Of a stretch of 64,000 nt of DNA, positions 11,701 to 26,342 are shown piece by piece (within the stretch, counting starts at the first letter, position 1; every line of letters starts with the position of its first letter). The notes under the pieces were generated by a model that worked only from the letters and a program-made list of their open reading frames with translations, was not told the origin of the DNA and ran no database searches. Where the stretch lies: NCBI RefSeq assembly GCF_900167525.1, contig NZ_FUZQ01000005.1, positions 310,001-374,000 on the forward strand. Direction: 5' to 3'. Source of the stretch: Krasilnikoviella flava. Its GTDB lineage: Bacteria > Actinomycetota > Actinomycetes > Actinomycetales > Cellulomonadaceae. A program made the translations under genes and the position numbers.

Positions 11701-12783
11701 TCAGATCCGCCCGCGCACCGGCGTGGTCTCGGCGTCCGAGCCGCCCTCGGGCATGACCATCTCGGCGCGGACGCCGAGCAGCCGCACCTCGCGGCCGGGC
11801 TCCATCCCGGCCGCGAGGTCGAGCACCGCCGCGGTCACCTCCTCGAGGGAGCGCGTCGGCGCGGGCAGCTTCCGCGAGAGCGTCCGCGTGAAGAACGGCG
11901 CGTAGCGCACCTTGAGCCCCACCCGGAACACCGGCCGGCCCTCCGCCTCGGTGTCCGCGTGCGCCTGCGCGGCCAGCTCCCGCAGCGCCGCCGTGACCTG
12001 CTCGGCTGTCGTGAGGTTGCGCTGGTACGTCGTCTCGCGGCTGTGCCCGCGGGCCACCCACGGGGTGTCGTCGACGACGGCGGACCCGTGCCCGCGGCCC
12101 AGCTCCCCGTACCAGGCGCCCATCCGCGGCCCGAACTCGCCGACCAGGACGGCGCCGTCGGCGGCGGCGAGCTGCGCGACCGTGTCGATGCCGTGCGCCG
12201 CCAGCCGCCGGGACACCTTGGCGCCCACGCCCCACAGGTCGAGCGTCGGCCGCTCCCCCATCACCTGGGACCAGGTGTCCGCGGTGAGCCGGTACACGCC
12301 CGCGGGCTTGCCGAACCCGGTCGCGATCTTGGCGCGGATCTTGTTGTCGCCGATGCCGACCGAGCAGTGCAGTGCGGTCGCGTCGAGCACCGCCTGCTGG
12401 ACGCGGCGGGCGAACGCCTCCGGGTCCTGCGCGTCGCTCCCCAGGAACGCCTCGTCCCAGCCGAGGACCTCCACCACGGTGCCGAGCCCGCGGAGCGTGT
12501 CCATCACGTGCGCGGACGCCGCGTCGTACACCTGGTGGTCCACCGGCAGGATGACCGCGTCCGGGACCTTGCGGGCCGCGACCCGCAGCGGCGTCCCCGA
12601 CCCGACGCCGTACGCCCGCGCCTCGTACGACGCGGTGGACACCACGGCCCGCTCGTTCGGGTCGCCCCGACCGCCCACGATCACCGGGCGTCCGGCGAGC
12701 TCCGGGCGCCGCAGGATCTCGACCGCGGCCAGGAACTGGTCGAGGTCGACATGCAACACCCAGCGGAAGGAGCGCGGGCCCAT
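11701..12783 (-). CDS. dinB: DNA polymerase IV, DinB2-like Y-family polymerase
   Basis: A 360-residue Y-family translesion DNA polymerase. The palm carries the two metal-binding sites: HVDLDQF (Asp13) and GWDEAFLG (Asp110-Glu111). HhH motifs at about residues 175-195 (LWGVGAKVSRRLAAHGIDTV) and a little-finger domain follow. GWDEA, in place of the usual SIDEA, resembles mycobacterial DinB2. The residue matching the steric gate (Phe13 in E. coli Pol IV) is Leu18 here. DinB2 with a Leu gate is known to accept ribonucleotides, so this enzyme may too. It stands alone and is not visibly under a LexA box. Confidence 0.9.
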   Translation of the reverse strand: MGPRSFRWVLHVDLDQFLAAVEILRRPELAGRPVIVGGRGDPNERAVVSTASYEARAYGVGSGTPLRVAARKVPDAVILPVDHQVYDAASAHVMDTLRGLGTVVEVLGWDEAFLGSDAQDPEAFARRVQQAVLDATALHCSVGIGDNKIRAKIATGFGKPAGVYRLTADTWSQVMGERPTLDLWGVGAKVSRRLAAHGIDTVAQLAAADGAVLVGEFGPRMGAWYGELGRGHGSAVVDDTPWVARGHSRETTYQRNLTTAEQVTAALRELAAQAHADTEAEGRPVFRVGLKVRYAPFFTRTLSRKLPAPTRSLEEVTAAVLDLAAGMEPGREVRLLGVRAEMVMPEGGSDAETTPVRGRI

Positions 12784-12837: not shown

Positions 12838-13725
12838 TCACGGCTCCCGGAGGGACGCCGTACGCTCCGCGAGCGCCAGCGTCCACCGGGCACGCTCGAC
12901 CATCGCGACGTCGAGGAACGTGCCGTCGGGCAGCACCACGGTGCCGGTCCCGGCGTCGGCGGCGTCGGCCACGACGCGCACGACCTCGCGTGCGCGGGCC
13001 ACCTCGTCCGGGCGTGGCGCGAACGCCTCGCGGATGGTCGCGAGCTGCGCGGGGTGGATCGCCGTGCGACCGCAGAAGCCGAGCGCGCGGCCGGCGCGGC
13101 AGGACGCGGCCAGGCCTTCCAGGTCGCGCACGTGCGTGTACGCGGACATCGCGGGCGCGGGCAGCCCCGCGGCCCGCGCCGCCACGACGACCCGGGCCCG
13201 CGCCCACGTCAGCCCCGCGTCGTCGTCGACCCGCAGGTCGGACCGCAGGTCGGCCTCCCCGAGCCCGACCGACGCGACCCGCGGCGACGCCGTCGCGAGC
13301 TCGAACGCCCGCTCGACGCCCAGCGCGGACTCCAGCAGCAGGTGCAGTCGCCGGCCGGGCAGCGCGTCGGCGAGGGCACGCACCTCGGCGACCGACTCGA
13401 CCTTCGGCACCCGGGCGCCGACGCCGCGCGGCAGCGCGGCGAGGGCGGCCACGTCCTCCGCGTGCCACGGCGTGGACGCGTGGTTGACCCGCACCTGCAC
13501 GGCCGGTCCGTCGCCCTCGCCGCCGAGGAGCCGTACCAGGTGTCCGCGGGCGGCGTCCTTCGCCGCCGGGGCGACGGCGTCCTCCAGGTCCACCAGCACC
13601 GCGTCCGCCCCCGAGGACAGCGCCTTGGCCACGCGGTCCGGCCGGTCCGCGGGCACGTACAGCAGCGTGAGCGGCGGCGCGCCCGGCGCGTCGCCCGGCA
13701 TGTCGGGGCCCGCGGGCGCCGTCAC
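12838..13725 (-). CDS. HpcH/HpaI-type CoA-ester lyase (citrate lyase beta-like)
   Basis: A 295-residue TIM-barrel protein of the CitE/malyl-CoA lyase group. Visible motifs include LYVPADRPDRVAKAL near the start, DAVLVDLEDAV (about residues 41-51), PKVESVAEV, LLLESALGV (metal-ligand Glu) and GLGEADLRSDL (metal-ligand Asp). These enzymes cleave 3-hydroxyacyl-CoA esters into acetyl-CoA or propionyl-CoA plus a keto acid, or do the reverse. It is the last gene of the long operon and its GTG overlaps the CoA-transferase stop, which suggests it cleaves the CoA ester made by that enzyme. Confidence 0.88.
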   Translation of the reverse strand: MTAPAGPDMPGDAPGAPPLTLLYVPADRPDRVAKALSSGADAVLVDLEDAVAPAAKDAARGHLVRLLGGEGDGPAVQVRVNHASTPWHAEDVAALAALPRGVGARVPKVESVAEVRALADALPGRRLHLLLESALGVERAFELATASPRVASVGLGEADLRSDLRVDDDAGLTWARARVVVAARAAGLPAPAMSAYTHVRDLEGLAASCRAGRALGFCGRTAIHPAQLATIREAFAPRPDEVARAREVVRVVADAADAGTGTVVLPDGTFLDVAMVERARWTLALAERTASLREP

Positions 13726-14930
13726 ACCGCCCCCTCGGCCCGCAGGGCGGCGACCCGCTCGGGCGAGAAGCCCAGCTCGCCCAGCACCGCGTCGGTGTCG
13801 GCTCCGTGGGCGCGGCCGGTGTGCCGGATGACGCCGTCGTTCCCGGACAGCCGGAACAGCGGCCCCTGCATGAGCAGCGGCCCGAGCTCCGGGTCGTCGA
13901 TCTCGTGGATCGTCCCGAGCGCCCGGAACTGGGGGTCGTCCACGATGTCGTGGGCGTCGTAGATCGGTGCCACCGCGGCCTGCGCCTCCTCGAACGCCGC
14001 GACCACCTCGTCCCTGGTGCGCCGGGCGATCCAGCCGCCCACCGCCTCGTCGAGCTCGTCGGCGTGCTGCGCCCGGTCGACACCGCGGGCGAACCACGGC
14101 TCGTCGATCAGCTCGGGGCGGCCCACGAGGCGCATCACCCGCTCGGCGATCGACTGCGCCGAGGTGGACACGGCGACCCACTGCCCGTCGCTGGTGCGAT
14201 AGGTGTTGCGCGGCGCGTTGTTGGCCGAACGGTTGCCGGTGCGCGGCTGCACCGTGCCCAGCTGGTCCCAGCGGGTGATCTGCGGACCGAGCATCGCGAG
14301 GATCGGCTCCACGATGGCGGTGTCGACCACCTGCCCCTTGCCCGTGGCCTCCCGCGTGGACAGGGCGACCATGACCGCGAAGGCCGTCGCGAGGGACGCG
14401 ACCCCGTCGGCCAGGCCGAAGGGCGGGAGCGTGGGCGCGCCGTCGGGCTCGCCGGTCATCGCGGCGAACCCGCTCATCGCCTCCGCGAGGGTGCCGAAGC
14501 CGGGGCGCGTGCGGTACGGGCCGACCTGGCCGAAGCCGCTGACCCGTGCCAGCACGAGCCGCGGGTTGCGGGCCGACAGCTCGTCGTAGCCGAGCCCCCA
14601 CCGCTCGAGCGTGCCCGGCCGGAAGTTCTCGATGACCACGTCCGAGCGCTCGGCCAGCGCGAGGAAGACCTCCCGGCCGCCGTCGCTCCCGAGGTTCGCC
14701 GTGATCGTGCGCTTGTTGCGCCCTAGCGTCTTCCACCAGAGGTTGACGCCGTCCTTCGCCGCGCCGTGCGTGCGCGACGGGTCGGGCTTCTCCGGGTGCT
14801 CCACCTTGACGACGTCCGCGCCCATGTCGCCGAGGTGCATGGCCGCCATCGGGCCGGCGAACAGGGTGGACGCGTCCACGACGCGCAGCCCGGAGAGCGC
14901 GCCGGCGCCCGGATCGCGGGAGACGGTCAT
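13722..14930 (-). CDS. CaiB/BaiF family (class III) CoA-transferase
   Basis: A 402-residue class III CoA-transferase. It opens with LSGLRVVDASTLFAGPMAA and DMGADVVKVEHPEKPDP, then GRNKRTITANL and VVIENFRPGTLERWGLGY, all family signatures; the interior has the FGTLAEAMSGFAAMTGEPDG stretch around the catalytic Asp region. It moves CoA between carboxylic acids. ATG 14930 has GGAGGTGA upstream and overlaps the previous stop (ATGA). The pairing with a CitE-like lyase resembles itaconate/citramalate-type degradation, but the hydratase of that pathway is absent here. Confidence 0.9.
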   Translation of the reverse strand: MTVSRDPGAGALSGLRVVDASTLFAGPMAAMHLGDMGADVVKVEHPEKPDPSRTHGAAKDGVNLWWKTLGRNKRTITANLGSDGGREVFLALAERSDVVIENFRPGTLERWGLGYDELSARNPRLVLARVSGFGQVGPYRTRPGFGTLAEAMSGFAAMTGEPDGAPTLPPFGLADGVASLATAFAVMVALSTREATGKGQVVDTAIVEPILAMLGPQITRWDQLGTVQPRTGNRSANNAPRNTYRTSDGQWVAVSTSAQSIAERVMRLVGRPELIDEPWFARGVDRAQHADELDEAVGGWIARRTRDEVVAAFEEAQAAVAPIYDAHDIVDDPQFRALGTIHEIDDPELGPLLMQGPLFRLSGNDGVIRHTGRAHGADTDAVLGELGFSPERVAALRAEGAV

Positions 14931-16942
14931 CGAGTCACCTCCGTCGAGTCCACGGTGCCCAGCGCGTCGGGCAGGTCCCAGGCGCACCGGAACCCGAGCG
15001 TCGCCCCGCGGGCGAGGCCCAGGCCGGGCAGCAGCAGCTTCACCGCGTAGTCGGGCGCGTGCCGTCCGCCCTCGACATACCAGTCCGAGCCCTCGGCACG
15101 GTAGTCGCTGCCTCCCTTGATCATGACGTACCGGGTGCGGCCGTCGCTGTGCTCGCTGTCGGTCCAGGCCCAGACGGCGGGCGTGCCGCGGCGGAAGCCG
15201 GGCGACTCCCCCGCGAGCTGCCACTCGTCCTCGGTGGGCAGCCGCCCCCCGCGCCAGGCGCAGTACGCCCGCGCGTCGTCCAGGTCGACGAACGTCACCG
15301 GCTCGTCCTCGGTACCCGGCGCCGGGCGGCCGTCCGCCCAGTGCGCCAGGAAGCGGTGGTGCACGGCCGGCGCGTAGCCGGTGGCGTCGAGGAACGCGGC
15401 GAACTGCGCGTTGGTCACCTCGGTCGCGCCGACGGCGACGGGAGCGGCGAGCTCGCCGTCACGCTGCAGCGTGCGGGCGTCGTGCAGGCGCGGGGGCAGC
15501 GGCTTCCACTCGTCGACGTACGGCGCGCCCTGGTACATGCCGGTCTCGCGCGCACGGTGCCGCACCGTGAGCACGTACGCCCCGGGGGGCACGACGACGG
15601 CGCCGCGGTCGGGCCCCGCGTCGGGCGCGAGATCCGCGGGGACGTCCGGCCTGAGCCGGCGGGCGATGCGGTGCGGGAAGCGGGCGTCCGGGTCGTGGCG
15701 GTCGGCGCCCTCGTCCAGGCCGTCCACGACCGCGCGCAGCCCGGCCGCCCACGACGGCTCGTCCGCGCCGGTGCGCAGCAGCGCCGCGACGCCCCGGGCG
15801 GGGACGGTGACCCGCTCGTCGCCGTCGGCGAGCACCGGCCCGGCGTAGTCCTCCTCGCCGCGGTTGACGAGGGTCCACAGCGTGACGCCGTCGGCCTCCC
15901 ACCGGGACGCGTACACCCCTGCGGCCTCGGCCTCGGGGGCCAGCTCCGCGAGCGGCGTCCAGTCGCCGCCGAGGAGCAGCTCGCGCGCCGCACGCTGCAC
16001 GGTCACCATGCGCCGCACGGTCGCGGCGTCGCGGGCGGACCACCCGACCCACACCCCGAAGACGACCTCCCACACCATGACGCCCACGCCGTTGAGCCAC
16101 GCGGACTGCAGCTCCTCGCTGTGGTCGCGGTGCCAGCGCCGCACGTGGTGCTGCATGTGCCGCCGCTCGTACCAGTGCGCGCGCAGCACGCCCGGCACCG
16201 GCGAGTCGGCGAAGAACTGGGCCCACGACGACGAGTGGTCCTCGATGCGCTCGACGGGCAGCTTCGACTCGCCCTCGAGCACGATGCCGGGACGGGCGGC
16301 CTCCAGCCGGGCCACGAGCTCGGGCTCCGCCTTCTTCAGGGTGTCGAGGAAGACGCCGTCCGCGCCGAGGTCGCGCACCAGCGCGGCCAGCTCCGTGGGG
16401 TCGTCGTCGCCGCGGCGGGTGCCCGTGTCCCAGGGGTTGTAGTCGACGAAGACGTGCAGGCCGGCGTCGTGGAACGCCTGCACGAGGTCGACGATGCCGG
16501 GGACGTCGCGGTAGAAGTCCCACTGGTTGCGGTCGTCGATCCCGATCACCGGGTAGGCGTGCCACAGCACGACGGCGTCCAGCCCCGCGAACCGCTCGCG
16601 CGCGTCGGCGAGGAAGCGCTCGGGGGTGAATCGGCGCTCGTCGAACGAGTACAGCAGCTCGTCCCACAGCCACACCTGTGCCACGGTCCGGCAGCCCGCC
16701 GCCCACGCCGCCTCGGGCCGGTCGTAGGCGGTGCCCGTGTAGCCGTGGCGCTCCCGGGCGTCCGACCGCCAGGCCGTCAGGCGCTCGCGCCACTCCGGGC
16801 GGGCGGCCGGGTCAGCAGGGCCGACGAAGATCTTCGCCTCGTCGAGCGCGACGCTCTGCTCGGGGGTGAGCGGGCCGTCGAGCGGCACGTCGGTGGGCCG
16901 GTCGATGGGCCGCGGGACGAGGGGGTCGAACGTGTACGTCAT
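14927..16942 (-). CDS. TIM-barrel (glycoside hydrolase-like) domain fused to SUMF1/EgtB/PvdO domain
   Basis: A 671-residue protein with two parts. Residues about 80-330 look like a glycosidase-type TIM barrel: VAQVWLWDELLYSFD, LDAVVLWHAYP, GLHVFVDYNPWDTGT, LGADGVFLDTL (Asp200) and IVLEGESK (Glu223) fall where nucleophile and acid/base carboxylates usually sit; a beta-rich region follows to about 390. Residues about 445-656 form a SUMF1/formylglycine-generating-enzyme-like domain (GATEVTNAQFAAFL, CAWRGGRLPTEDEW, TLGFRCAWD). No signal peptide. The cysteine pair of true sulfatase-modifying enzymes is not evident, so the second domain may bind ligand or do other chemistry. Function unknown. Confidence 0.75.
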   Translation of the reverse strand: MTYTFDPLVPRPIDRPTDVPLDGPLTPEQSVALDEAKIFVGPADPAARPEWRERLTAWRSDARERHGYTGTAYDRPEAAWAAGCRTVAQVWLWDELLYSFDERRFTPERFLADARERFAGLDAVVLWHAYPVIGIDDRNQWDFYRDVPGIVDLVQAFHDAGLHVFVDYNPWDTGTRRGDDDPTELAALVRDLGADGVFLDTLKKAEPELVARLEAARPGIVLEGESKLPVERIEDHSSSWAQFFADSPVPGVLRAHWYERRHMQHHVRRWHRDHSEELQSAWLNGVGVMVWEVVFGVWVGWSARDAATVRRMVTVQRAARELLLGGDWTPLAELAPEAEAAGVYASRWEADGVTLWTLVNRGEEDYAGPVLADGDERVTVPARGVAALLRTGADEPSWAAGLRAVVDGLDEGADRHDPDARFPHRIARRLRPDVPADLAPDAGPDRGAVVVPPGAYVLTVRHRARETGMYQGAPYVDEWKPLPPRLHDARTLQRDGELAAPVAVGATEVTNAQFAAFLDATGYAPAVHHRFLAHWADGRPAPGTEDEPVTFVDLDDARAYCAWRGGRLPTEDEWQLAGESPGFRRGTPAVWAWTDSEHSDGRTRYVMIKGGSDYRAEGSDWYVEGGRHAPDYAVKLLLPGLGLARGATLGFRCAWDLPDALGTVDSTEVTR

Positions 16943-16988
16943 GGCTGCTCTCTGCGGACGGGGTCGCGCGGGTCTGTCGGATGGGGGT

Positions 16989-17900
16989 TCAGGCGGTGCC
17001 GGCGAGCGCGGCGACCTCGGACGCGGCGGGGACGGCGTCCTGCGCCCCCGGCCGGGTCACCGCGAGCGCGCCGGCGGCCGCGGCGAGCCGCGCCGCCTCG
17101 GGCAGGGCCTCCCCGCGGGCGAGGGCCGCGGCCAGCACGCCGCAGTAGGTGTCGCCTGCGCCGGTGGTGTCGACGGCCACGACCCGGTGCGCGGGCACGC
17201 GTACCGGAGGCTCGCCGCGGCGGGCCACCAGGCTGCCCTGACCGCCCAGCGTGACGACGGCCGCGGGCACGCGCTCCAGCAGAGCGTCCGCGAGCGCCTC
17301 GGTGTCGACGCCGACAGACGGCCCGGCCAGGTCCGCGGCCTCGTGCTCGTTCACCACGAGCACGTCGACCGCCTCCCACACCTCCTCGGGCAGCGGGCGT
17401 GACGGCGCCGCGTTGAGCACGAAGAGCGCGCCGGGCCGGCGGGCGGCCGCCGCGGCGCGCACCACGTCGAGCGGGATCTCCAGCTGGGCGAGGACGACGT
17501 CGGCGGCGGCGATCCGCTCGGCCTGCGGCGCCTCGACCGCGAGGTGGGAGTTCGCCCCCGGAGCGACGACGATCGCGTTCTCGCCGTCCGGGGAGACGGT
17601 GATGAGGGCGGTGCCGGTGGGCACGTCGAGGCGCCAGACCAGGTCGGTCTTCACCCCGGCGCGCCGGAGCGAGGCGAGGAGCAGGTCGGCGGAGTCGTCG
17701 CGACCGACGGCGCCCACGAACGACGTCTCCGCCGCTCCCGCGCGCGCCGCCCCCGCGGCCTGGTTGGCCCCCTTGCCGCCGGGGCTGCGACGCAGGTCGC
17801 CGCCCAGGATGGTCTCGCCGCCCGCCGGATGACGGGGCACGTCGACGACCAGGTCCACGTTGGCGGACCCGACCACGACCACGCGCCCGTCCGTGCTCAC
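16989..17900 (-). CDS. ribokinase-like PfkB family carbohydrate kinase
   Basis: A 303-residue PfkB-fold kinase starting at GTG 17900, with GGGAGGA upstream and a GTGA overlap with the preceding gene. N-terminal VVVVGSANVDLVVDVPRHPAGGETILGG and SPGGKGANQAAGAARAG form the ribokinase sugar-binding signature; DTTGAGDTYCGVLAAALARG near residue 245 is the PfkB signature 2 with the catalytic Asp. It should phosphorylate ribose or a related sugar or nucleoside at the 5' position with ATP. Its place between two ADP-ribosylglycohydrolase genes and the fusion gene suggests it traps a ribose freed from an N-glycoside. Confidence 0.9.
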   Translation of the reverse strand: MSTDGRVVVVGSANVDLVVDVPRHPAGGETILGGDLRRSPGGKGANQAAGAARAGAAETSFVGAVGRDDSADLLLASLRRAGVKTDLVWRLDVPTGTALITVSPDGENAIVVAPGANSHLAVEAPQAERIAAADVVLAQLEIPLDVVRAAAAARRPGALFVLNAAPSRPLPEEVWEAVDVLVVNEHEAADLAGPSVGVDTEALADALLERVPAAVVTLGGQGSLVARRGEPPVRVPAHRVVAVDTTGAGDTYCGVLAAALARGEALPEAARLAAAAGALAVTRPGAQDAVPAASEVAALAGTA

Positions 17901-19300
17901 GCCCGTCCTCCCTCGTCGGTCATGTCGCCAGCCTGCGGTGCGGGGGCGCGGCGCGCGAGCGCCGTCGTCCGCGCGGCGAGGTCGGCGATGCTCCGCTCGC
18001 CGCCGGGCAGCGACGTCGCGATCCGCCCGTCGAGCGGCGCCGCCCACCGCTCGCCGATCCCGTCCGCGCCGCGCAGGGCGCCGGCCACGCCGCCGACCGT
18101 GGCGGCCGCGGAGTCGGTGTCCCAGCCGGCCGTCACGGCGATCGACACGCTCGCGCCGAACTCGCCGCGCCCCGCCGCGAGCGCGTAGGCGATCACGGCG
18201 GCGTTGTGCAGCACGTGCACCCAGTGCAGGTCGCCGTAGGCGGTGTGCAGCCGGTCGAGGTCGGCGCGGACCGCCGGCTCCGAGCCGTCGGAGGCCACGC
18301 CCAGCTCGCGGCCCAGGCGGACGGCCGCGGCGAGGCGGCTGCCCGGCGGCACGACGCCGTCGGCTGCGTCGAGCACCTCCTCGACGTCGTCCACCACGAC
18401 GGCCGCCGCCGCGAGGGCCGCGGCCCACATGGCCCCGTACACCCCGTTGCGGGTGTGGCTGAGGCGGGCGTCGGTCCACGCCAGGCGCGCGGCCCCGCGC
18501 ACGTCGCCCGGGCTGACCCAGCCGAGCAGGTCGGTCCTGATGAGCGCGCCGATCCACTCGCGGAACGGGTTGTGGTGCGTCGCCGTCTCCGGCACCGGTC
18601 GTGCGTCGAGGATGTTGCGGTACGCCGCGCGCTCGGCCGTGAACGACCGGCCGGCGGGCATGAGGTCGAGCCAGAGCTGCGCGACGTCGTCGGTGGTGAA
18701 CCCGCGGCCGCGGGCCTCGAGGAGCTCGAGCGCCAGGATCGGGTAGTTGAGGTCGTCGTCCTCCGGCATCCCGTCGATGTTCTCCTCGAGCGAGGTCGGC
18801 GCGGAGCGGCGGTTCCACGGCCAGCGGGCCGCGACGTCGTCGGGCAGGCCGACCGCGGTGAACCAGCGATCCAGCGGCCACCGGTCCGTGGCGCGCAGGA
18901 TCTCCTCGATGCCCTCGCGCGGGATCTTCTCGACGGGCTTACCGAGCAGGCAGCCGGCGGCGCGGCCCGTCCAGGCGCCGAGGACGCGGGCGTCGAGGTC
19001 CGCGCCGGGGCGGGGCAGCCGCGGCGCGGGCGGCAGCAGGGCGACGATCGCGTCCCAGCCGTCCGGCTCCTGCGGCGCCGCGGCAGCGGGTCGGGCGTCG
19101 AGCTCGTCCAGCAGCTCGCGGGCCAGCGCGCGCAGCTCGGGCGTCGCGGGCACCGGGCCGGCGCCGCTCACCGCGGGCACCGGGTCTCCCCCGGCGGCCG
19201 TCCAGCGCTCGCGGACGTCGGCCGTCTCCTTGCCCTCGGCGGCGGACTGCACGAGCTCGTGGGCGAGCAGGTCCTCCGGCTGGGCCCAGGTCAGCCTCAC
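17897..19300 (-). CDS. ADP-ribosylglycohydrolase family protein 1
   Basis: A 467-residue protein starting at GTG 19300, with GGGGGAG upstream and a GTGA overlap. A roughly 110-residue N-terminal extension precedes the ARH domain, which begins RVLGAWTGRAAGCLLGKPVEKI. Acidic metal-binding stretches are visible: PEDDDLNYPILALELLE (about 200) and AVTAGWDTDSAAATVGGVAGAL near 395. ARH proteins are all-alpha dimagnesium hydrolases that cut N- or O-ribosidic bonds. This copy differs from its neighbour in length and motif spelling, so the two are probably not redundant. Confidence 0.88.
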   Translation of the reverse strand: MRLTWAQPEDLLAHELVQSAAEGKETADVRERWTAAGGDPVPAVSGAGPVPATPELRALARELLDELDARPAAAAPQEPDGWDAIVALLPPAPRLPRPGADLDARVLGAWTGRAAGCLLGKPVEKIPREGIEEILRATDRWPLDRWFTAVGLPDDVAARWPWNRRSAPTSLEENIDGMPEDDDLNYPILALELLEARGRGFTTDDVAQLWLDLMPAGRSFTAERAAYRNILDARPVPETATHHNPFREWIGALIRTDLLGWVSPGDVRGAARLAWTDARLSHTRNGVYGAMWAAALAAAAVVVDDVEEVLDAADGVVPPGSRLAAAVRLGRELGVASDGSEPAVRADLDRLHTAYGDLHWVHVLHNAAVIAYALAAGRGEFGASVSIAVTAGWDTDSAAATVGGVAGALRGADGIGERWAAPLDGRIATSLPGGERSIADLAARTTALARRAPAPQAGDMTDEGGRA

Positions 19301-20508
19301 GCCGGCTCCCCCACGGCGCCGCGTCCGGCCGCGTCGTACCCGGCCGGCTCCGCGGCGTCGAGCGCGTCCATCCCGGCGAGGCGGGCGCGCGCCCGCTCGG
19401 CGTCCGCGCGCACGATGTCCGCCGCCGCGGAGGCCATGAGGCGCCCCGTCTCGCGGACGTCGGTGCGGCTCGCCTCCTCGATCTCGTCCAGCCACTCGGC
19501 GGGGACCACGCCGGTGCCGCCGAGGCCGGCCGCGACCGCGCCGGCCATGACGGCGATCGAGTCGGCGTCCCGCCCGTAGTTCACGGCGGCGAGCACGGCG
19601 CCGCGGAAGTCCCCCCGGTGCCCGAGCAGCATGCCGAGCGCCGCCGGCAGCTCCTCGATCGACTTGGTCCGCGAGGGGCGGCGCGCGTCCATCGACATCT
19701 GCCGGTAGGCGGGCCCGACCGAGTCGAACGGGGCGACGGTGTCGCGCACCAGGCGGCCGAGCTCGCGCTCCTCCTCGTCCGTCGTGGGCGCCGTCGTCCA
19801 CCCGTCGAACGCGTCGACCATCGCGTGCAGGGCGTCGGCCGTGCCGTCGTGCGCGACGTCCAGCGCCGCGTGCACGACGTCGTCGAGCGTGGCTCCGGGC
19901 GCCACCGACGCCGCGACCATGGCGGCGAACACGCCCGCGGCCTCGCGCCCGTAGCTCGACTGGTGGGCGCCCGTGAAGTCGATCGCCTCGGCGTACGCGC
20001 CGCGGGGGTCGCCCGGGTTGGCGAGGCCGACGGGCGCGACGTACATCGCGGCCCCGCAGTTGACGACGTTGCCGACGCCCGCCTCGCGCGGGTCCACGTG
20101 CCCGTAGTGCAGGCGCGCGACCATCCACTTCTCGGCGAGGAACACCCGCTGCAGCAGCAGCGCCGTCGACTCGAGCTCGGGGATCCAGCGCGGCTCGCCG
20201 ATCATCAGGGGCACCAGGTCCTCCGCGACGGCGTACGCGTCGAGGTGGTCGCGGCGCTTGGCGTAGACCTCCACGACGGCCCGGGTCATGAGGGTGTCGT
20301 CGGTGATGTGCCCGTCGCCCTTGTGGTACGGCGCGATGGGGCGGGCGTCGCGCCAGTTCGGGTACCAGGGGCCCACGATCCCGGTCACCCGGCCGCCGTG
20401 GCGCTCCTCGATCTGCTCGGGGGTCCACCCCTCGACGGCACCGCCGAGCGCGTCGCCCACGGCCGCGCCGGTGATCACGGCCATCGATCGGTCGTCCAGC
20501 CAGGTCAC
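19297..20508 (-). CDS. ADP-ribosylglycohydrolase family protein 2
   Basis: A 403-residue ARH-fold protein. GTG 20508 is preferred because GAGGGAG sits about five bases upstream; GTG 20514 is an in-frame alternative too close to that site. The domain starts almost at once (MAVITGAAVGDALGGAVEGWTPEQI), has the classic first metal-binding motif GHITDDTLMTRAVVEV (about 80-95), and the second motif NYGRDADSIAVMAGAVAAGLGG (about 330). This is the canonical dinuclear-magnesium ribosyl-hydrolase site. It follows the ABC-transporter genes after about 100 bases and its stop overlaps ARH protein 1. Confidence 0.9.
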   Translation of the reverse strand: MTWLDDRSMAVITGAAVGDALGGAVEGWTPEQIEERHGGRVTGIVGPWYPNWRDARPIAPYHKGDGHITDDTLMTRAVVEVYAKRRDHLDAYAVAEDLVPLMIGEPRWIPELESTALLLQRVFLAEKWMVARLHYGHVDPREAGVGNVVNCGAAMYVAPVGLANPGDPRGAYAEAIDFTGAHQSSYGREAAGVFAAMVAASVAPGATLDDVVHAALDVAHDGTADALHAMVDAFDGWTTAPTTDEEERELGRLVRDTVAPFDSVGPAYRQMSMDARRPSRTKSIEELPAALGMLLGHRGDFRGAVLAAVNYGRDADSIAVMAGAVAAGLGGTGVVPAEWLDEIEEASRTDVRETGRLMASAAADIVRADAERARARLAGMDALDAAEPAGYDAAGRGAVGEPA

Positions 20509-20606
20509 GGTCACTCCCTCGTCGTCCTGCGGGGCACGTGTCTCGCGCCCCGGTTTGCCCGCGAGCGGGCGGTCGTGCGGGCGGCGGCGTGCCGCCCGCA
20601 CGACGG

Positions 20607-21890
20607 TCACTGCGTGATCTCGTCCCACCCGTCGGTGAGCTGCGTCTGCAGCCCGGCGGCGTCGGTCTCCTGCGCCAGGAACCGCTGGTAGGCCGGCGTG
20701 GCCACGGTGTCCTTCCACTGCGCGTACGCGTCGGCGAACAGGTACGGCGCGGAGACGAAGTGCTGGCCCGAGGCGAGGATGGTGCTCCACCCGTTCTCGT
20801 CGCCGAGCTTGTCGGCCATGACCTTCTGGGCCGACGTCGTCGCCGGGATCAGGGCGTCCGCCTCGTTGAGCGCGGCCAGGTTGTCCGCCTCCGTGAAGAA
20901 CTCGATGAACTCGGCCGACTCCTCGACGTGCTCGGAGTCGATGTTCACCGACAGGGTCTGCGGGTTGGCGGCCTGGCCGGCGCCCTCGGGCCCGGCGAGC
21001 GGCGGCAGCACCACCCACTCGAGGTCCTTCGGCGCGTCCTTGGCGATGTTCGCCGCCTGGTAGGAGCCCTGTACCGTCATCGCCGTCTGGCCCGCGTAGA
21101 ACGACGCGATCGCCTCCGACCCGGACTGAGTGAGCGTGACCGGCAGGATCGACTTGTCCTGGTAGGCCATGGCGTCCACGAGCTCCGGCAGGGCCATCTC
21201 GCCGTCGCCGACGGTGATCTGCGCGTCCTGGCCGGTGCCCGAGAAGTACTCGCCGCCGAAGCCCGGCGCCAGCGTCATGAACGCGGCGGTCGGGCTCGAA
21301 AGGCCCCAGCCGAGGCCGTAGGTCTTGCCCTTCGTGGTGGCCTTCGCGATCTCCCGGAGCTGGTCCCACGTCATGGTGTCGCCCGTGGGGATCTCGACGC
21401 CCGCGTCGGTGAGGAGCTTCTTGTTCGCGAAGACCATGTAGGACTGCAGCTCGGTCGGGTAGGCGACGATCTGGTCGTCGACCGTCACCGAGTCCAGGAC
21501 GCCCTCGGGGATGTCCTGCTTGCGCTCGTCGGACATGTACTCGGACAGGTCCGCGAGGTAGCCGTCGCGGGCGAACGGCACGATGCTCGCGGCCTCGTAG
21601 TGGATGACGTCCGGCGCGGCGCCGCCGTTGAACTGGGTGATGAGCTTGTCGTAGACGCCGTCCCACCCGGTCGGGACGATCTCGACCTGCACGTCGGGGT
21701 GCGCGTCGTTCCACTCGCCGACGATCTTCTCCGTGGCCTCGATGGCCGCGGGCTGGTCGGACAGCGACTGGAACTTCAGCGTGACCGGGCCGCCGTCCCC
21801 GCCCTCGTCGCCGCCCCCGCCGCTGCAGGAGGCGACGAGCAGGGCGGTGACCGTGAGGCATGCGGCGGTGGACACTCCACGAGTCTTCAT
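20607..21890 (-). CDS. carbohydrate ABC transporter substrate-binding lipoprotein
   Basis: A 427-residue extracellular binding protein (family 1 type). The N-terminus is a lipoprotein signal peptide with lipobox LVASC (Cys at about residue 22) and a Gly-rich linker. The mature part has the usual landmarks: VTLKFQSLSDQPAAIEATEK, VVGEWNDAHPDVQVEIVPTGWDG and AYQDKSILPVTLTQSGSEAI. It captures the substrate of the importer formed with the two permeases downstream in coordinates. No ATPase gene lies in the operon, so a shared MsiK-type ATPase is presumably used, as is common in actinobacteria. Confidence 0.92.
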   Translation of the reverse strand: MKTRGVSTAACLTVTALLVASCSGGGGDEGGDGGPVTLKFQSLSDQPAAIEATEKIVGEWNDAHPDVQVEIVPTGWDGVYDKLITQFNGGAAPDVIHYEAASIVPFARDGYLADLSEYMSDERKQDIPEGVLDSVTVDDQIVAYPTELQSYMVFANKKLLTDAGVEIPTGDTMTWDQLREIAKATTKGKTYGLGWGLSSPTAAFMTLAPGFGGEYFSGTGQDAQITVGDGEMALPELVDAMAYQDKSILPVTLTQSGSEAIASFYAGQTAMTVQGSYQAANIAKDAPKDLEWVVLPPLAGPEGAGQAANPQTLSVNIDSEHVEESAEFIEFFTEADNLAALNEADALIPATTSAQKVMADKLGDENGWSTILASGQHFVSAPYLFADAYAQWKDTVATPAYQRFLAQETDAAGLQTQLTDGWDEITQ

Positions 21891-21948
21891 GGGTCTGCCT
21901 TTCGTGAGTCGGTGGGCGATGTGTCAGATGCGGTGGAGCGAGGTCGGG

Positions 21949-22776
21949 TCAGCCCTTGACCGCCCCCGCCATGAGGCCCCCGGTGAGCTTCTTCTGCATG
22001 ATCGAGAAGAAGACGATGCTGGGGATCGCGGCGAGGAACGACCCCGCCGCGAGCGGTCCCAGCGCGACCTTGCCCTCGCCGCCGATGAACGACGTGAGCG
22101 TGATCGGCAGGGTGTAGTTCTCGGGCGACTGGAGCAGCACCAGGGCGAAGAAGAACTCGTTCCACGACGAGACGAAGCTGAACATCGCGGTGGCGACGAT
22201 GCCCGGCGCGAGCAGCGGGAACACGATGCGGCGCAGCACGGTGAGCCGCGTCGCGCCGTCCATCGACCCGGCCTCCTCGAGCTCGGTCGGGATGCCGACG
22301 ACGTACCCCTGCAGCATCCACAGCGCGAACGGCAGCGTGTACGTGGTGTGCACCAGCGTCAGCCCCACCAGGCTGTCGGTGAGGTTCATGGTCCGCAGGA
22401 TGAGGAACAGCGGCAGGATGATGAGGATCACCGGGAACACCTGGCTCACGAGGATCCATCCGACGCCGGCCACCCGGATCGCCCCCTTGAGCCGGGCGAG
22501 CACGTAGGCCGCGGGCATCGCGATGAGGATGACCAGCACGGTGGAGGCGAGCGCCACCACGAGGCTGTTCGCCGCCGAGCTCATCAGGCCCTGCCGCGCG
22601 AGCGCCTGGGCGTAGTTGTCCCAGTGCCACTGCGACGGGAGGAGGCTGACCGTGAGGGAGTTGAGCTCGGCGGAGGACTTCACCGACGCGGAGATCAGCC
22701 ACAGCAGCGGGAAGCCCAGGAAGACGATGTAGCCGGCCAGCGCCACGTACTGGGCGGGGCGGACGAGGACGCGCAT
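21949..22776 (-). CDS. carbohydrate ABC transporter permease (MalG type)
   Basis: A 275-residue inner-membrane permease with six predicted helices: the first at about 13-32 and the last near 240-260. The cytoplasmic EAA loop is ELEEAGSMDGATRLTVLRRIVFPLL at about residues 180-204 (EAGSMDGAT core), which docks on the ATPase. The N-terminal YIVFLGFPLLWLISASVKS is typical of the MalG branch. It follows the MalF-type permease after four bases. Confidence 0.92.
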   Translation of the reverse strand: MRVLVRPAQYVALAGYIVFLGFPLLWLISASVKSSAELNSLTVSLLPSQWHWDNYAQALARQGLMSSAANSLVVALASTVLVILIAMPAAYVLARLKGAIRVAGVGWILVSQVFPVILIILPLFLILRTMNLTDSLVGLTLVHTTYTLPFALWMLQGYVVGIPTELEEAGSMDGATRLTVLRRIVFPLLAPGIVATAMFSFVSSWNEFFFALVLLQSPENYTLPITLTSFIGGEGKVALGPLAAGSFLAAIPSIVFFSIMQKKLTGGLMAGAVKG

Positions 22777-22780
22777 CGGC

Positions 22781-23752
22781 TCAGCCCTTCTTCACGGCGC
22801 GGTCGTCGCGGAACTGCGACCGCAGATAGACGGCGAGGAGCAGGACCACGACCACGACGAGGACGACGCCCATCGCCGCGGCGTACCCGATGTTGCGGTT
22901 CTTGAACGCCTCGAGGTAGGTGAACAGCATCGGCAGCATGGTGCGGCCGCCCGGCCCGCCCTCGGTAAGGACGTAGACCAGCGAGAACGAGTTGAAGTTC
23001 CAGATGAAGTTCAGCGACGTGATCGACGCGACGATGGGGCGCAGGCTCGGCCAGGTCACCGCGGTGAACCGGCGCCACGCGTTCGCCCCGTCCATGGATG
23101 CGGCCTCGTGCAGCTCTCCCGGGATCTGCTGCAGGCCCGCGAGCAGCGTCACGGTGGTCTGCGGCATGCCGACCCAGACTCCGACGACGATGACCGCCGG
23201 CAGCGCGGTGGAGAAGTCGGCGAGCCAGTTGATGTCGTCCGGCAGGCCCAGTGCCCCGAGGAACGCGTTGAGCGGCCCCGCGTTGGGCGAGTAGATCATC
23301 TTCCACATGATCGCCACGACGACGGGAGGCATCGCCCAGGGGATCAGCGCCAGCACACGGGTGAGCCCCTGCAGCCGGAGCCCGGAGTTCAGCAGCTGCG
23401 CGAGCCCGAGCGCCAGCACGAGCTGCAGCACCGTCACCGAGACGGCCCAGATCATGCCGATGCGGAACGAGTCCCAGAAGAACGAGTTGTCGGCGAGCCG
23501 CACGAAGTTGTCGACGCCCACGAACTGGTAGTCCGGGTGCCGCACGAGGCGGGCGTCGGTGAACGCCAGGGCGATGCCCATGACGAGCGGCGCCACGGAG
23601 AGCACCAGGATCGGCAGCAGCGACGGCATCACCAGGGCGGCGGCCTCGCGGCGACGCCCTCGCTCGAGGCCGCCGCGGTGGCGCAGCGGACGCGCCGGAC
23701 GACCGGCGGTGGACGTCGTGGGCCCGGCCGCGGGCGCGGTGGGGGCGCTCAT
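22781..23752 (-). CDS. carbohydrate ABC transporter permease (MalF type)
   Basis: A 323-residue permease. After a 40-residue polar N-terminus, the first helix (LPILVLSVAPLVMGIALAF) leads into the MalF-type layout; the EAA loop is HEAASMDGANAWRRF at about residue 215, followed by TWPSLRPIV. The ATG overlaps the stop of the LacI-type regulator gene (ATGA), which places regulator and transporter on one transcript. Partner of the MalG-type permease. Confidence 0.92.
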   Translation of the reverse strand: MSAPTAPAAGPTTSTAGRPARPLRHRGGLERGRRREAAALVMPSLLPILVLSVAPLVMGIALAFTDARLVRHPDYQFVGVDNFVRLADNSFFWDSFRIGMIWAVSVTVLQLVLALGLAQLLNSGLRLQGLTRVLALIPWAMPPVVVAIMWKMIYSPNAGPLNAFLGALGLPDDINWLADFSTALPAVIVVGVWVGMPQTTVTLLAGLQQIPGELHEAASMDGANAWRRFTAVTWPSLRPIVASITSLNFIWNFNSFSLVYVLTEGGPGGRTMLPMLFTYLEAFKNRNIGYAAAMGVVLVVVVVLLLAVYLRSQFRDDRAVKKG

Positions 23753-24780
23753 CGCGAGCTCCCCTCGGCGGCGGTGGACTCACGCACGAGCAGGCGCGGG
23801 CCGATGACGACGTGCTGGGCGGGCGCCTCGCCGTCCTCCAGGCGGGCGAGCACGGCACGCGCCGCGGCGGCCCCACGCTCGGAGGAGCCGAGCGACACGC
23901 TCGTGAGGCTCGGCTCGTAGACGCGACCGAGCTCGGTGTCGTCCATCCCCGTGACGGCGACGTCGCCCGGGACGGTCAGGCCTGCCTCGCGTGCGGCGCG
24001 GACGGCGCCGATGGCGAGCAGGTCGTTGGCGGCGACGACCGCGTCGAGCCGCGAGCCGTCCGCAGCGGGCGCCAAGAGGGCCCGCGCGGCGCGCAGCCCG
24101 GCCGCCACGGTGAAGTCGTCGGCGACCTCGACGGTGGTGCGCTCGGCCGGGAACCCGTTCGCCCGGGCCGCGGCGTCGAAGCCCCGCTGCCGTGCCCGGC
24201 CCGGGGTCGTGTCGAGCGGACCGTTGAGGAACCCGATGCGCCGCCGGCCAGACCGCACCAGGTGGTCGACGGCCTGGCCGATGCCGTCCGCGGAGTCCGT
24301 GGAGACCGAGTCGATCGCCCCGTCGTCGAGCGAACGGCCGACGACGACCACCGGCACCGGGGCGCGGCGGATCTCGTCCGCCAGCGCGTCGTCGGCGCGC
24401 AGCGGGCTGATCACGAGGGCGTCCACGAAGCCGCTGCCGAGGCTGCGCACGAGGTCGGTGGCCGCGCCGGCGGTGTCGCCGGTGGTCATGACGACGACCC
24501 GGTACCCGTGGGGCGAGAGGACCTCGTGGATGGCGGTGAGCATCTCGACGTAGACCGGGTTGCCGATGTCCGCGACGGCGAAGGCGACCTGGAAGGTCTT
24601 CTTCATCCGCAGGGACCGGCCGGTCACGTCGGGGCTGTACCCGAGCTCCTCGGCGGCGGCGCGCACGCGCTCCACCATGGCCGGGCTGGCCCCGGTGCCG
24701 TGCAGGGCCCGCGACGTCGATGCGAGGGAGACCCCGGCGTGCCGGGCCACCTCGATCAACGTGGCGCGTGATGACGTCAC
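23749..24780 (-). CDS. LacI family transcriptional regulator
   Basis: A 343-residue LacI/GalR repressor: N-terminal HTH (TLIEVARHAGVSLASTSRAL) with hinge helix, then the periplasmic-binding effector domain (FQVAFAVADIGNPVYVEMLT onwards, VAANDLLAIGAVRAAREAGL near 250, GMDDTELGRVYEPSLTSV near 285). It is the first gene of the long operon and sits 30 bases from two perfect GGAAACGTTTCC sites, so it very likely represses its own operon until a sugar-like inducer binds. Confidence 0.93.
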   Translation of the reverse strand: MTSSRATLIEVARHAGVSLASTSRALHGTGASPAMVERVRAAAEELGYSPDVTGRSLRMKKTFQVAFAVADIGNPVYVEMLTAIHEVLSPHGYRVVVMTTGDTAGAATDLVRSLGSGFVDALVISPLRADDALADEIRRAPVPVVVVGRSLDDGAIDSVSTDSADGIGQAVDHLVRSGRRRIGFLNGPLDTTPGRARQRGFDAAARANGFPAERTTVEVADDFTVAAGLRAARALLAPAADGSRLDAVVAANDLLAIGAVRAAREAGLTVPGDVAVTGMDDTELGRVYEPSLTSVSLGSSERGAAAARAVLARLEDGEAPAQHVVIGPRLLVRESTAAEGSSR

Positions 24781-24810: not shown

Positions 24811-24822
24811 GGAAACGTTTCC
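24811..24822. promoter_or_regulatory. LacI-type operator 1 (GGAAACGTTTCC)
   Basis: A perfect 12-bp palindrome, GGAAACGTTTCC, with a central CG as LacI-family operators require. It lies 31 bases before the regulator start, in the likely 5' leader or core promoter. With the second copy 34 bases away, it fits cooperative repression of the operon. Confidence 0.85.
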
Positions 24823-24844: not shown

Positions 24845-24856
24845 GGAAACGTTTCC
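24845..24856. promoter_or_regulatory. LacI-type operator 2 (GGAAACGTTTCC)
   Basis: An identical copy of the palindrome at 24811-24822. The centre-to-centre distance is 34 bp, a little over three helical turns. It probably flanks or overlaps the minus-strand promoter of the operon led by the LacI gene. Confidence 0.85.
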
Positions 24857-24986: not shown

Positions 24987-25406
24987 CTAGGCGGTGGCGG
25001 AGGGCGGCACGACGAGGTCGTCCAGGTCCGGCGGCCGGTACCCCCGCCCCTTGAGCACCTTGCCGTCGGCACGTCGGAGCACCCGGCCGTCGGCGTCCAC
25101 CTTGCTCATGTTCGACCGGTGGACCTCGACGAAGACCGCCGGCAGGTCGATCCCCAGCGCGTCCGCGGCCCCGTAGGTGACGTAGAGGACGTCGGCGAGC
25201 TCCTTCGCCGACGCCCGGTAGGCGGCGGCCGTGTCACCGCCCTCGGCCAGCGCCGTCGCCAGGTCCGTGAGGGCCTCCGCCGCCTCCCCCGCCTCCTCGG
25301 TCAGCAACGCCCGGCGGTGCTCCGCCAGCCCGGGGCGGGTGGGGTCGGCCTCGAGGTCGAACGCCTCGCGGAACTCGGCGACCCGGCGCATCGGCTCATG
25401 ATCCAT
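24987..25406 (-). CDS. MazG-like nucleotide pyrophosphohydrolase
   Basis: A 139-residue all-alpha NTP pyrophosphohydrolase-like protein. The metal site is formed by LLTEEAGEAAEAL (EExxE, about residues 35-47) and KELADVLYVTYG (ExxD, about 68-79). The C-terminal SKVDADGRVLRRADGKVLKG then YRPPDL region is typical of a small HisE/MazG-like group. Such enzymes hydrolyse nucleoside triphosphates to monophosphates and may clean up non-canonical nucleotides. Monocistronic. Confidence 0.85.
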   Translation of the reverse strand: MDHEPMRRVAEFREAFDLEADPTRPGLAEHRRALLTEEAGEAAEALTDLATALAEGGDTAAAYRASAKELADVLYVTYGAADALGIDLPAVFVEVHRSNMSKVDADGRVLRRADGKVLKGRGYRPPDLDDLVVPPSATA

Positions 25407-25554: not shown

Positions 25555-26109
25555 ATGTCCGTCTCCGCCCCGACCCACCGCACGACTGCCGGCACCCGCG
25601 CCCCGGACGTCCCCGCCACCCGTCGCCTCCCGAACGCGCTCGCCGAGCAGGTCGCGCCGCGGCTCGACGTCGCCGTCACCGCACTCGCCCAGCTCCTCAC
25701 CCGGTGGTCCGTGCCCGCGCTGCGCGTCGCGCTCGGCCTCGTGTTCCTCGGCTTCGGCGTCCTGAAGTTCTTCCCCGGCGCCAGCCCCGCCGAGGAGATC
25801 GCCGGCCGCACCGTGGAGACGCTCACGCTCGGCCTCGTCCCGAGCACGACGGCCGTGATCCTGGTGGCGGTCATGGAGACCTTCATCGGCCTCACCCTCA
25901 TCTCCGGCCGCCTGCTGCGGGTCGGGCTGGTCGTCCTCGCCGTCGCGATGGTCGGGATCCTGTCCCCCGTCGCCCTCTTCGGCGACGAGCTGTTCGGGCA
26001 CGGCATGAGCCTGCTCGGGCAGTACGTGCTCAAGGACGTCGTCCTGGTCGCGGGCGCCTCGGTCGTCGCCGCCGTCGCCCTGGGCGCCCGGCTCCGCCTC
26101 GAAGCCTGA
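25555..26109 (+). CDS. DoxX family membrane protein
   Basis: A 184-residue membrane protein of the DoxX superfamily. After a polar, Thr/Pro-rich N-terminus (1-45), four helices follow: VPALRVALGLVFLGFGVLKF with the family GFGxLKFF signature, TAVILVAVMETFIGLTLI, VGLVVLAVAMVGILSPVAL and LKDVVLVAGASVVAAVAL. DoxX proteins are linked to redox or thiol/sulfur metabolism in some bacteria. A strong hairpin terminator follows at 26144. Confidence 0.88.
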   Translation: MSVSAPTHRTTAGTRAPDVPATRRLPNALAEQVAPRLDVAVTALAQLLTRWSVPALRVALGLVFLGFGVLKFFPGASPAEEIAGRTVETLTLGLVPSTTAVILVAVMETFIGLTLISGRLLRVGLVVLAVAMVGILSPVALFGDELFGHGMSLLGQYVLKDVVLVAGASVVAAVALGARLRLEA

Positions 26110-26143
26110 CGCCGCGCCTCACCCGTACCCGCACCACCACCAC

Positions 26144-26176
26144 GGAGCCTCCGGCCGTCCCCCGGCCGGAGGCTCC
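26144..26176 (+). terminator. 13-bp GC hairpin after doxX-like gene
   Basis: Bases 26144-26156 and 26164-26176 are perfect reverse complements (13-bp stem, 7-base loop GTCCCCC). It lies 35 bases past the DoxX stop and before the riboswitch. There is no clear T tract, as is usual in high-GC actinobacteria. Confidence 0.7.
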
Positions 26177-26257
26177 CGTGCGTCCGGACCGGCGTCCGGA
26201 TCGTGAGAAGTCTCCGGAGCGGCCTGGCGTTCCGACGATCCGCTGCTATACCTCCGC

Positions 26258-26342
26258 CCAGGTCACGAGCCCCAGTGCGAAGCCCCGGCTGGCTGGGCAG
26301 CAACCCCCACGTCACGGCGGGGTGCTCCGGGAGATGACCTGG
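26258..26342 (+). ncRNA. SAM-IV-type riboswitch 1
   Basis: The aptamer begins GGTCACGAGC and contains the conserved core AAGCCCCGGCTGGCTGG, CAGCAACCC and GGGGTGCTCCGGG, ending in ATGACC. The outer helix P1 pairs CCAGGTCA (26258-26265) with TGACCTGG (26335-26342). This core is the one shared by SAM-I and SAM-IV aptamers; the short form in an actinobacterium favours SAM-IV. It binds S-adenosylmethionine and should turn off the flavin reductase/monooxygenase operon when SAM is plentiful. A hairpin follows eight bases later. Confidence 0.87.

Follow-up and report, generated by a model that had tools for sequence, protein, structure and literature searches.

A LacI-controlled operon with ADP-ribosylglycohydrolase-fold enzymes in Krasilnikoviella flava: a possible pathway for a furanosyl conjugate

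Positions 310,001 to 374,000 of the Krasilnikoviella flava contig NZ_FUZQ01000005.1 (the whole stretch of 64,000 nucleotides that was analysed, here called the window) contain a ten-gene operon on the minus strand. It spans positions 12838-24780, from the GTG start of a LacI gene (24780) to the end of a CitE gene (12838), and encodes, in this order, a LacI-family regulator, two permeases, a binding protein, two ADP-ribosylglycohydrolase-fold (ARH) enzymes, a ribokinase-like kinase, a TIM-barrel/SUMF1 fusion, a class III coenzyme A (CoA)-transferase of the CaiB type and a CitE-like lyase. The genes form one transcription unit and most likely serve one pathway, within which the CoA genes are a detachable module. 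We tentatively read the set as one catabolic operon under LacI control whose substrate is a small furanosyl conjugate, with slightly less than even confidence in the pathway as proposed. The conjugate would be imported by the binding protein and the two permeases together with an ATPase from elsewhere in the genome. ARH1 and ARH2, as metal-dependent hydrolases acting as catabolic glycosidases, would split furanosidic (most likely D-ribosyl) bonds, and the barrel/SUMF1 protein, in lineages that have it, would trim a further glycosyl unit. The kinase would deliver ribose 5-phosphate to the pentose phosphate pathway. A C4-C6 beta-hydroxy dicarboxylic acid (of the citramalate, malate or 3-hydroxy-3-methylglutarate class) would receive CoA from a donor like succinyl-CoA through the class III transferase, and the lyase would cleave the acyl-CoA into acetyl-CoA and an oxo-acid. 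Import and hydrolysis of a furanoside, trapping by the kinase, and CoA activation and cleavage of a hydroxy-dicarboxylic acid make up the simplest reading that uses all parts. It builds on the observed operon structure, operators, protein folds, conserved catalytic and metal-site residues, and co-inheritance of the genes.

24845-24856 (no strand): LacI-type operator 2, GGAAACGTTTCC, a perfect palindrome 34 bases from operator 1 (motif search)
24811-24822 (no strand): LacI-type operator 1, GGAAACGTTTCC, a perfect palindrome (motif search)
23749-24780 (-): LacI-family regulator, 343 aa (Pfam PF00356, PF13377)
22781-23752 (-): sugar ATP-binding cassette (ABC) permease 1, UgpA/MalF type (Pfam and NCBIfam)
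21949-22776 (-): sugar ABC permease 2, GlcU/MalG type (Pfam and NCBIfam)
20607-21890 (-): solute-binding protein SBP_bac_1, probable lipoprotein (Pfam; lipobox-like LVASC read in the sequence)
19297-20514 (-): ARH1, ADP-ribosylglycohydrolase-fold enzyme, 405 aa (PF03747, 163 bits)
17897-19300 (-): ARH2, divergent ARH-fold enzyme with a helical N-terminal extension, 467 aa (PF03747, 154 bits; model)
16989-17900 (-): ribokinase-like PfkB kinase, 303 aa (best solved relatives are ribokinases)
14927-16942 (-): glycoside hydrolase (GH)-like (beta/alpha)8 barrel fused to a SUMF1-fold domain, 671 aa (Pfam, AlphaFold model, Foldseek)
13722-14930 (-): class III (CaiB/FRC) CoA-transferase, 402 aa (PF02515, 396 bits)
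12838-13725 (-): CitE/RipC-like beta-hydroxyacyl-CoA lyase, 295 aa (PF03328, 107 bits)

An earlier sequence-only reading had proposed ten minus-strand genes within these limits, joined by five overlaps. All ten are present, and all five overlaps are exact: five of the nine junctions are 4-base stop/start overlaps (ATGA at 23749-23752, GTGA at 19297-19300, GTGA at 17897-17900, ATGA at 14927-14930 and GTGA at 13722-13725), and the remaining four are gaps of 4, 58, 92 and 46 bases. The GC content at third codon positions is 0.956-0.993 in all ten genes. Between 12400 and 25200, two terminator-like sites were found (1.2 in shuffles) and no promoter-like site (0.1 in shuffles). Pfam confirms the family names of that reading (LacI, twice BPD_transp_1, SBP_bac_1, twice ADP_ribosyl_GH, PfkB, FGE-sulfatase, CoA_transf_3 and HpcH_HpaI), which had mentioned neither the operators nor the GH-like nature of the barrel. 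The optional genes, the additional ARH genes and the Streptomyces-like and rhizobial relatives were out of its reach, as it used no tools.

A search for the same gene order in other actinobacteria, which had been suggested as a check, finds it in other genera and families. We tabulated 69 loci: the window, 20 wide loci, 7 of another 80 loci, 16 of 18 further stretches (L158 was left out as it comes from the same genome as L055, and L174 as TIM/SUMF1 was found there alone), 20 of 61 other genomes with ARH1, and 5 of 21 plasmid-collection records with ARH1. Seven loci cut by contig ends (L031, L034, L036, L160, L172, L225, L226) were set aside, which leaves 62 including the window. The order LacI-permease 1-permease 2-binding protein-(ARH3-ARH4)-ARH1-ARH2-kinase-TIM/SUMF1-CaiB-CitE is nearly fixed in these 62 loci; here ARH3 and ARH4 are additional paralogues of other actinobacteria, which have up to four ARH genes at the equivalent locus. 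Exceptions are L219, with CaiB-CitE first, upstream of LacI, and ARH3-ARH4 last, and L230, with ARH1 ahead of ARH3-ARH4. ARH1 is present in 62 loci, ARH2 in 57, CaiB and CitE in 55 each, the kinase in 50, LacI in 41, TIM/SUMF1 in 39, ARH3 and ARH4 in 32 each, and a surface esterase in 11. The LacI count is too low, as several stretches end inside this gene and the scores of the Hyphomicrobiales copies do not reach the threshold. CaiB and CitE occur together in 55 loci, are both absent from seven (four Hyphomicrobiales plasmids, Nonomuraea, L223 and L224), and are never found one without the other; the Fisher value of 2e-9 for this pairing ignores relatedness and is not taken as a probability.

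The full ten genes are found in Promicromonospora, Kribbella, Okibacterium and Actinorhabdospora. In Actinorhabdospora they stand in the same order, with 47-70% identity for nine proteins and 39% for the binding protein. As the same ten genes recur in the same order in other genera, the arrangement is not due to chance. All genes except the kinase are present in Streptomonospora nanhaiensis, Naasia and Microbacterium resistens; the matches to ARH2, TIM/SUMF1 and CitE are split in Naasia (L062), so that the genes or the assembly may be damaged. TIM/SUMF1 homologues (E <=1e-20) were found in 21 of 148 relatives; four of these belong to the window's own genus, for which 18 genomes were listed, itself counted. 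This patchy spread marks the set as an accessory operon. Within the class, ARH1 occurs in 62 of 394 genomes (E <=1e-30) and TIM/SUMF1 in 20 of 394 (E <=1e-40). On a tree of ARH1 (66 rows), the TIM/SUMF1 label requires seven gains or losses, at least six of them forced by well-supported branches. Where present in the table, TIM/SUMF1 always lies between the kinase (or ARH2) and CaiB. Streptomonospora and Microbacterium resistens fall inside a supported clade that otherwise consists of the window's family and one Promicromonospora, which points to horizontal transfer.

Both ARH proteins score far above the gathering cut-off of PF03747 (163 and 154 bits against 26.2). The metal site of the family is made of a paired Asp motif in the N-terminal region and DxD[ST] in the C-terminal region. 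T71, D72, D73, D316, D318 and S319 of ARH1 are invariant in 66 of 66 sequences; in ARH2, E180-D183 is kept in 60 of 60 and D394, D396 and S397 in 59 of 59 sequences that cover the site. Judged from the alignments, the metal-site residues of both proteins are thus intact. Both halves of the site are also kept in the paralogue ARH3 of the relatives (34/34), and a single Asp of the C-terminal half is left in ARH4. The predicted model of ARH2 (predicted local distance difference test score, pLDDT, 82) confirms the ARH fold, with ARH3, DraG and MJ1187 structures making up most of the top Foldseek matches. ARH1 and ARH2 thus share the fold and the paired Asp motifs with DraG, ARH3 and Tri1. In contrast to these, the operon-encoded proteins occur as two to four paralogues within a sugar-importer operon, ARH2 carries a conserved N-terminal extension, and the DraG/ADP-ribosylarginine hydrolase equivalog models TIGR02662 and NF041672 are not reached (55 against 337 and 43 against 490 bits for ARH1; 21 and 19 bits for ARH2).

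The closest solved relatives of the kinase are ribokinases (218 bits), and the best NCBIfam model is the ribokinase model TIGR02152, narrowly missed with 270.5 bits against a cut-off of 299.65. Residues N14, D16, K43, N46, E141 and D250 are invariant (53/53); N14, D16, K43, N46, the Glu and the Asp base match ribose-binding and catalytic residues of E. coli ribokinase. With the ribose and nucleoside utilisation operons (RbsR, ribokinase), the set has in common a LacI-type regulator, a ribokinase-like kinase and ABC import. Those operons have an RbsABC importer and nucleoside hydrolases, whereas the window has a MalFG/UgpAE-type importer, ARH enzymes, CoA enzymes and a GH-like barrel. A plain ribose operon was therefore rejected, based on the other importer type and the extra enzymes found by Pfam and NCBIfam.

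In the CaiB-type transferase, D175 is kept in 60 of 60 sequences and aligns with the Asp of solved members, presumably the catalytic Asp of class III CoA-transferases. NCBIfam models for formyl-CoA (224 bits), succinate--glutarate (214) and mesaconate (211) transferases give similar scores for the window protein, and none of the substrate-specific equivalogs reaches its cut-off, with best values of 224 bits in the window and 242 in one relative. For two Streptomyces-like CaiB proteins that were scored, the succinate--glutarate CoA-transferase model is best. The lyase matches PF03328 with 107 bits against a cut-off of 25, and E132 and D159 are kept in 60 of 60 sequences. Its best NCBIfam model is that of the RipC/Ccl (S)-citramalyl-CoA lyases (NF038242), although the scores (143 in the window, 145 in L212, 187 in L220) are far below the cut-off of 375. 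Itaconate and citramalate degradation (RipABC, Ict-Ich-Ccl) also combines a CoA-transferase with a RipC/Ccl-type lyase. Unlike it, the window has ten genes without a hydratase, the CoA enzymes are embedded in a glycoside operon, and the RipC score is low. E132 and D159 match Glu112 and Asp138 of Rv2498c, the Mg ligands of that enzyme according to PMC6689899, in position and in spacing (27 against 26 residues), and are thus probable Mg ligands here. The paper describes Rv2498c as an (R)-3-hydroxy-3-methylglutaryl-CoA lyase that also accepts (S)-citramalyl-CoA as well as (S)-malyl-CoA, the latter with hydrolysis of the thioester, and that coordinates Mg via the substrate's 3-hydroxyl and terminal carboxylate. 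By analogy, this Mg coordination in the lyase family suggests that the acid belongs to the hydroxy-dicarboxylic class.

The N-terminal part of the fusion protein has no Pfam family at E 0.01 and no Pfam GH match, and the FGE-sulfatase match is limited to residues 493-596. In the AlphaFold model (pLDDT 86.6), the N-terminal part consists of eight alternating strands and helices. Foldseek finds a 3,6-anhydro-D-galactosidase as the best match and then mostly amylase-type enzymes. The description as a TIM-barrel/SUMF1 fusion therefore fits. D200 at the end of strand 4 (kept in 43/43) and E225 at the end of strand 5 (44/44) would be the catalytic pair of a retaining (beta/alpha)8 glycoside hydrolase. 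The barrel fold and the two invariant carboxylates, the Asp that follows strand 4 and the Glu that follows strand 5, are shared with barrel glycosidases such as 3,6-anhydro-D-galactosidase and neopullulanase or the amylases (families GH129 and GH13); these differ from the window protein, which has no Pfam GH match, low TM-scores and an attached SUMF1-fold domain. Formylglycine-generating enzyme and EgtB, which have the SUMF1 fold, share the FGE-sulfatase match. Formylglycine-generating enzyme binds copper through a Cys pair, for which the fusion proteins have no conserved counterpart: across 44 fusion sequences, no Cys position reaches 95% conservation, so that copper binding of this kind is unlikely and a formylglycine-generating role was rejected. 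Two actinobacterial copies have glycosidase neighbours: a TIM/SUMF1 gene adjoins a GH3 gene in L174, and another, in L053, has a GH4 gene nearby from which a divergent LacI gene separates it. Among distant homologues (25-44% identity), ten neighbouring open reading frames taken from L061, L063, L064 and L075 gave no coherent pathway by Pfam.

The binding protein and the permeases are of the oligosaccharide type, according to NCBIfam and to the relatives of the binding protein, for which the nearest solved chains give no clear ligand clue. None of the ten genes encodes an ABC ATPase. This is expected where many importers share one ATPase of the MsiK type; Hyphomicrobiales relatives carry a UgpC ATPase gene of their own.

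Both operators lie just upstream of the LacI gene, where GGAAACGTTTCC with at most one mismatch was found twice against 0.02 expected. The 14-mer TGGAAACGTTTCCA, again with at most one mismatch, occurs only at these two sites in the 4.85 Mb genome. The repressor therefore appears, on the distribution of its predicted sites, to control one operon only in K. flava, and the operator search of the genome gave no co-regulated extracellular enzymes. Among the 44 loci with enough upstream sequence, 21 have the core GAAACGTTTC upstream of LacI, in 15 cases at two sites; in the other 23, sites of the TGGAATCGTTTCCA type are found in three and TGAAAACGTTTCCA in one. In distant relatives the LacI site presumably differs or went unrecognised. 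The confinement of the operators to the operon and the core shared by 21 loci suggest a self-contained pathway. Together with the nearly fixed gene order and the pairing of CaiB and CitE, they bear out the earlier proposal of one transcription unit that probably serves one pathway.

Some relatives carry reduced sets. Nonomuraea has the importer, four ARH genes and the kinase without CaiB, CitE or the barrel. The four Hyphomicrobiales plasmids have the arrangement LacI-permease-permease-binding protein-ARH-UgpC, with two ARH genes in three of them and one in Pseudochrobactrum; a ribokinase is annotated beside the set only in Agrobacterium (1/4). On this Agrobacterium plasmid (L176, 14961-17307), genes for an acyl-homoserine-lactone synthase and LuxR-type proteins adjoin the ARH importer operon. 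Such quorum-sensing neighbours occur on opine-type plasmids. A Mycolicibacterium plasmid has LacI-ARH-binding protein-permease-permease-ribokinase-UgpC. On a Sphingopyxis plasmid the order is TonB receptor-ribokinase-TIM/SUMF1-GH127-CaiB (GH127 by Pfam), with no ARH annotated and with TIM/SUMF1 and CaiB each about 32% identical to the window proteins. Thus, an enzyme of a furanosidase family stands between TIM/SUMF1 and CaiB in a comparable set that has no annotated ARH.

Eight loci of one family (f37), which appears to be Streptomyces, have ARH3-ARH4-ARH1-ARH2-(kinase)-CaiB-CitE. Seven keep the ARH genes, the kinase and the CoA pair, and L231 lacks the kinase only. The set is flanked by gltB in eight of eight and by lgt on the other side in seven of eight (flank clusters); Pfam confirmed gltB, lgt and trpA in the flanks of L212. 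Since no importer is encoded beside it, the substrate may arise inside the cell there or use another importer. By position and gene count, the set is probably the SCO2028-2033 region of S. coelicolor. PMC9411070 gives SCO2028-2031 as four ARH homologues, and this paper and a second one list SCO2028-2030 or SCO2028-2031 as uncharacterised DraG/ARH homologues. The neighbourhood fits too, being close to trp: SCO2038 lies in the trpCXBA locus. The 'SCO2028' in PMC5036795 is an apparent slip for SCO2038 and was not used. S. coelicolor has seven or eight uncharacterised DraG/ARH homologues, from which one paper reads a lively ADP-ribosylation metabolism. SCO2028 and SCO2030 had no activity on U-alpha-ADPr in PMC13036486.

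A further gene recurs at the end of the operon. Directly after CitE, nine loci (flank clustering; L032, 14834-17437, and eight others) encode a surface protein with a CE1 feruloyl-esterase-like domain. Long copies add a beta-propeller similar to that of CylK, the copy in L050 ends in a sortase-like LAxTG anchor, and the reading frame in L038 is the esterase domain alone. By similarity, the gene follows the operon in 11 of the 62 loci. In the window genome, one weak partial match alone was found (E 5.4e-5, 36% identity over 75 residues).

Several points weigh against the pathway as proposed. The substrate, the order of the steps, the reactions and the products are inferred. No substrate-specific curated model is reached by the kinase, the CoA-transferase or the lyase, and PMC6689899 warns that, in PF03328, bioinformatics alone does not give a reliable assignment of function. 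The Foldseek TM-scores of the barrel are low (~0.33), the kinase is missing in 12 of the 62 loci and the CoA pair in seven, neither operator form is found in 19 of the 44 loci with room upstream, and the eight Streptomyces-like loci have no importer genes beside the set. Moreover, the loci are mutually related rather than independent, and were picked by their ARH1 or TIM/SUMF1 matches. The sequence-only reading had taken a riboside with a carboxylic acid aglycone as the input. Its riboside part agrees with the conserved ARH metal residues and ribose-site residues of the kinase, but ribose as the sugar is not established, all the more as the kinase can be absent. The aglycone part is not established either: an esterase gene accompanies 11 loci, so the acid could instead be an ester substituent. 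On the whole, the earlier interpretation is partly supported, and what stands is a conserved operon that most likely encodes one pathway.

The place of the acid is central to another explanation, which we regard as rather unlikely. The importer could take up a furanose-containing oligosaccharide, with the acid as an ester substituent that is freed by the surface CE1 esterase or in an intracellular step and then burnt by CaiB and CitE. The oligosaccharide type of the importer and the several glycosidase-like enzymes in one operon fit this explanation. The CE1 esterase after CitE, with its added propeller, favours an ester substituent where it occurs. However, it is missing in most loci, beside the window operon and, bar the weak match, in the genome; this and the importer-free Streptomyces-like form favour the acid as an aglycone. 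The solved relatives of the esterase also include ferulic acid esterases, and to our knowledge hydroxycinnamates are not expected as CaiB/CitE substrates. It is less likely still that the operon combines two pathways, an importer-ARH(-ribokinase) module for a riboside and an independent CoA-transferase/lyase module for another acid of the same habitat. The seven loci that keep importer and ARH without CaiB/CitE (e.g. Nonomuraea, Hyphomicrobiales) and the CoA pair upstream of LacI in L219 would agree with this. Yet the pair accompanies ARH genes in 55 of the 62 loci, nearly always at the end of the set, and the Streptomyces-like loci hold ARH, kinase and CoA pair together in seven of eight cases without importer or barrel. 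A split into two unrelated operons, which the sequence-only reading had named as evidence that would contradict it, is therefore seen only in so far as the CoA pair is detachable; where present, it is always found with ARH genes in the sample. Finally, the ARH proteins might be true, DraG-like ADP-ribosylation erasers that regulate the operon proteins and take no part in catabolism. They have the fold and metal-site residues of DraG and ARH3, and PMC9411070 and a second paper list the S. coelicolor proteins as uncharacterised DraG/ARH homologues. This role is nevertheless very improbable: two to four ARH genes sit in transporter/kinase operons, the DraG and Tri1 equivalog scores reach at best 55 of 337 and 43 of 490 bits, and Pfam finds no ADP-ribosyltransferase among the ten genes. 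The inactivity of SCO2028 and SCO2030 on U-alpha-ADPr in PMC13036486 also counts against it, for one substrate and with their identity to the set judged from position.

The neighbour of the operon on its upstream side is a PRA-PH/MazG-like gene (24987-25406). On the downstream side, 54 bases past CitE, begins a DNA polymerase IV-type gene (11701-12783, minus strand, PF00817). Being on the same strand as CitE, the latter could receive read-through from the operon; it is absent among the recurrent flanking clusters listed for related loci. Convergent with it lies a gene for an SGNH/GDSL-family esterase (11013-11681, plus strand, PF13472), which we take to resemble the rhamnogalacturonan acetylesterase type. 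Within 5 kb on the other side, plus-strand genes at 25555-30248 encode a DoxX-like protein (25555-26109), an FMN reductase-like protein (26417-27004) and a luciferase-like monooxygenase (28809-30248), perhaps an organosulfur-type flavin monooxygenase group. At 44001-48000 the GC content drops to 0.667, whereas all other 4 kb bins of the window lie at 0.705-0.770; this stretch is possibly acquired DNA.

Among the literature matches listed, no description of the cluster or of a catabolic role of ARH proteins was found in open-licence papers, in agreement with the earlier view that the route is undescribed. The findings raise a broader possibility, which we consider somewhat on the unlikely side. 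Actinobacteria may have turned enzymes of the ARH fold into catabolic furanosidases, within a widespread pathway that moves horizontally and whose substrates are a hydroxy-dicarboxylic acid conjugated to ribose or a similar furanose, a substrate class yet undescribed; the Streptomyces ARH genes (SCO2028-2031 by position) that have been filed as ADP-ribosylation erasers would then be part of it. If half of the DraG/ARH homologues of S. coelicolor were catabolic glycosidases, their count would be misleading, and the inactivity of SCO2028 and SCO2030 on U-ADPr reported in PMC13036486 would fit. Should the barrel/SUMF1 protein prove active, it would be the first member of a new glycosidase family. 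The operon itself is a compact self-regulated system, and its own binding protein and repressor may be used to fish for the soil metabolite.

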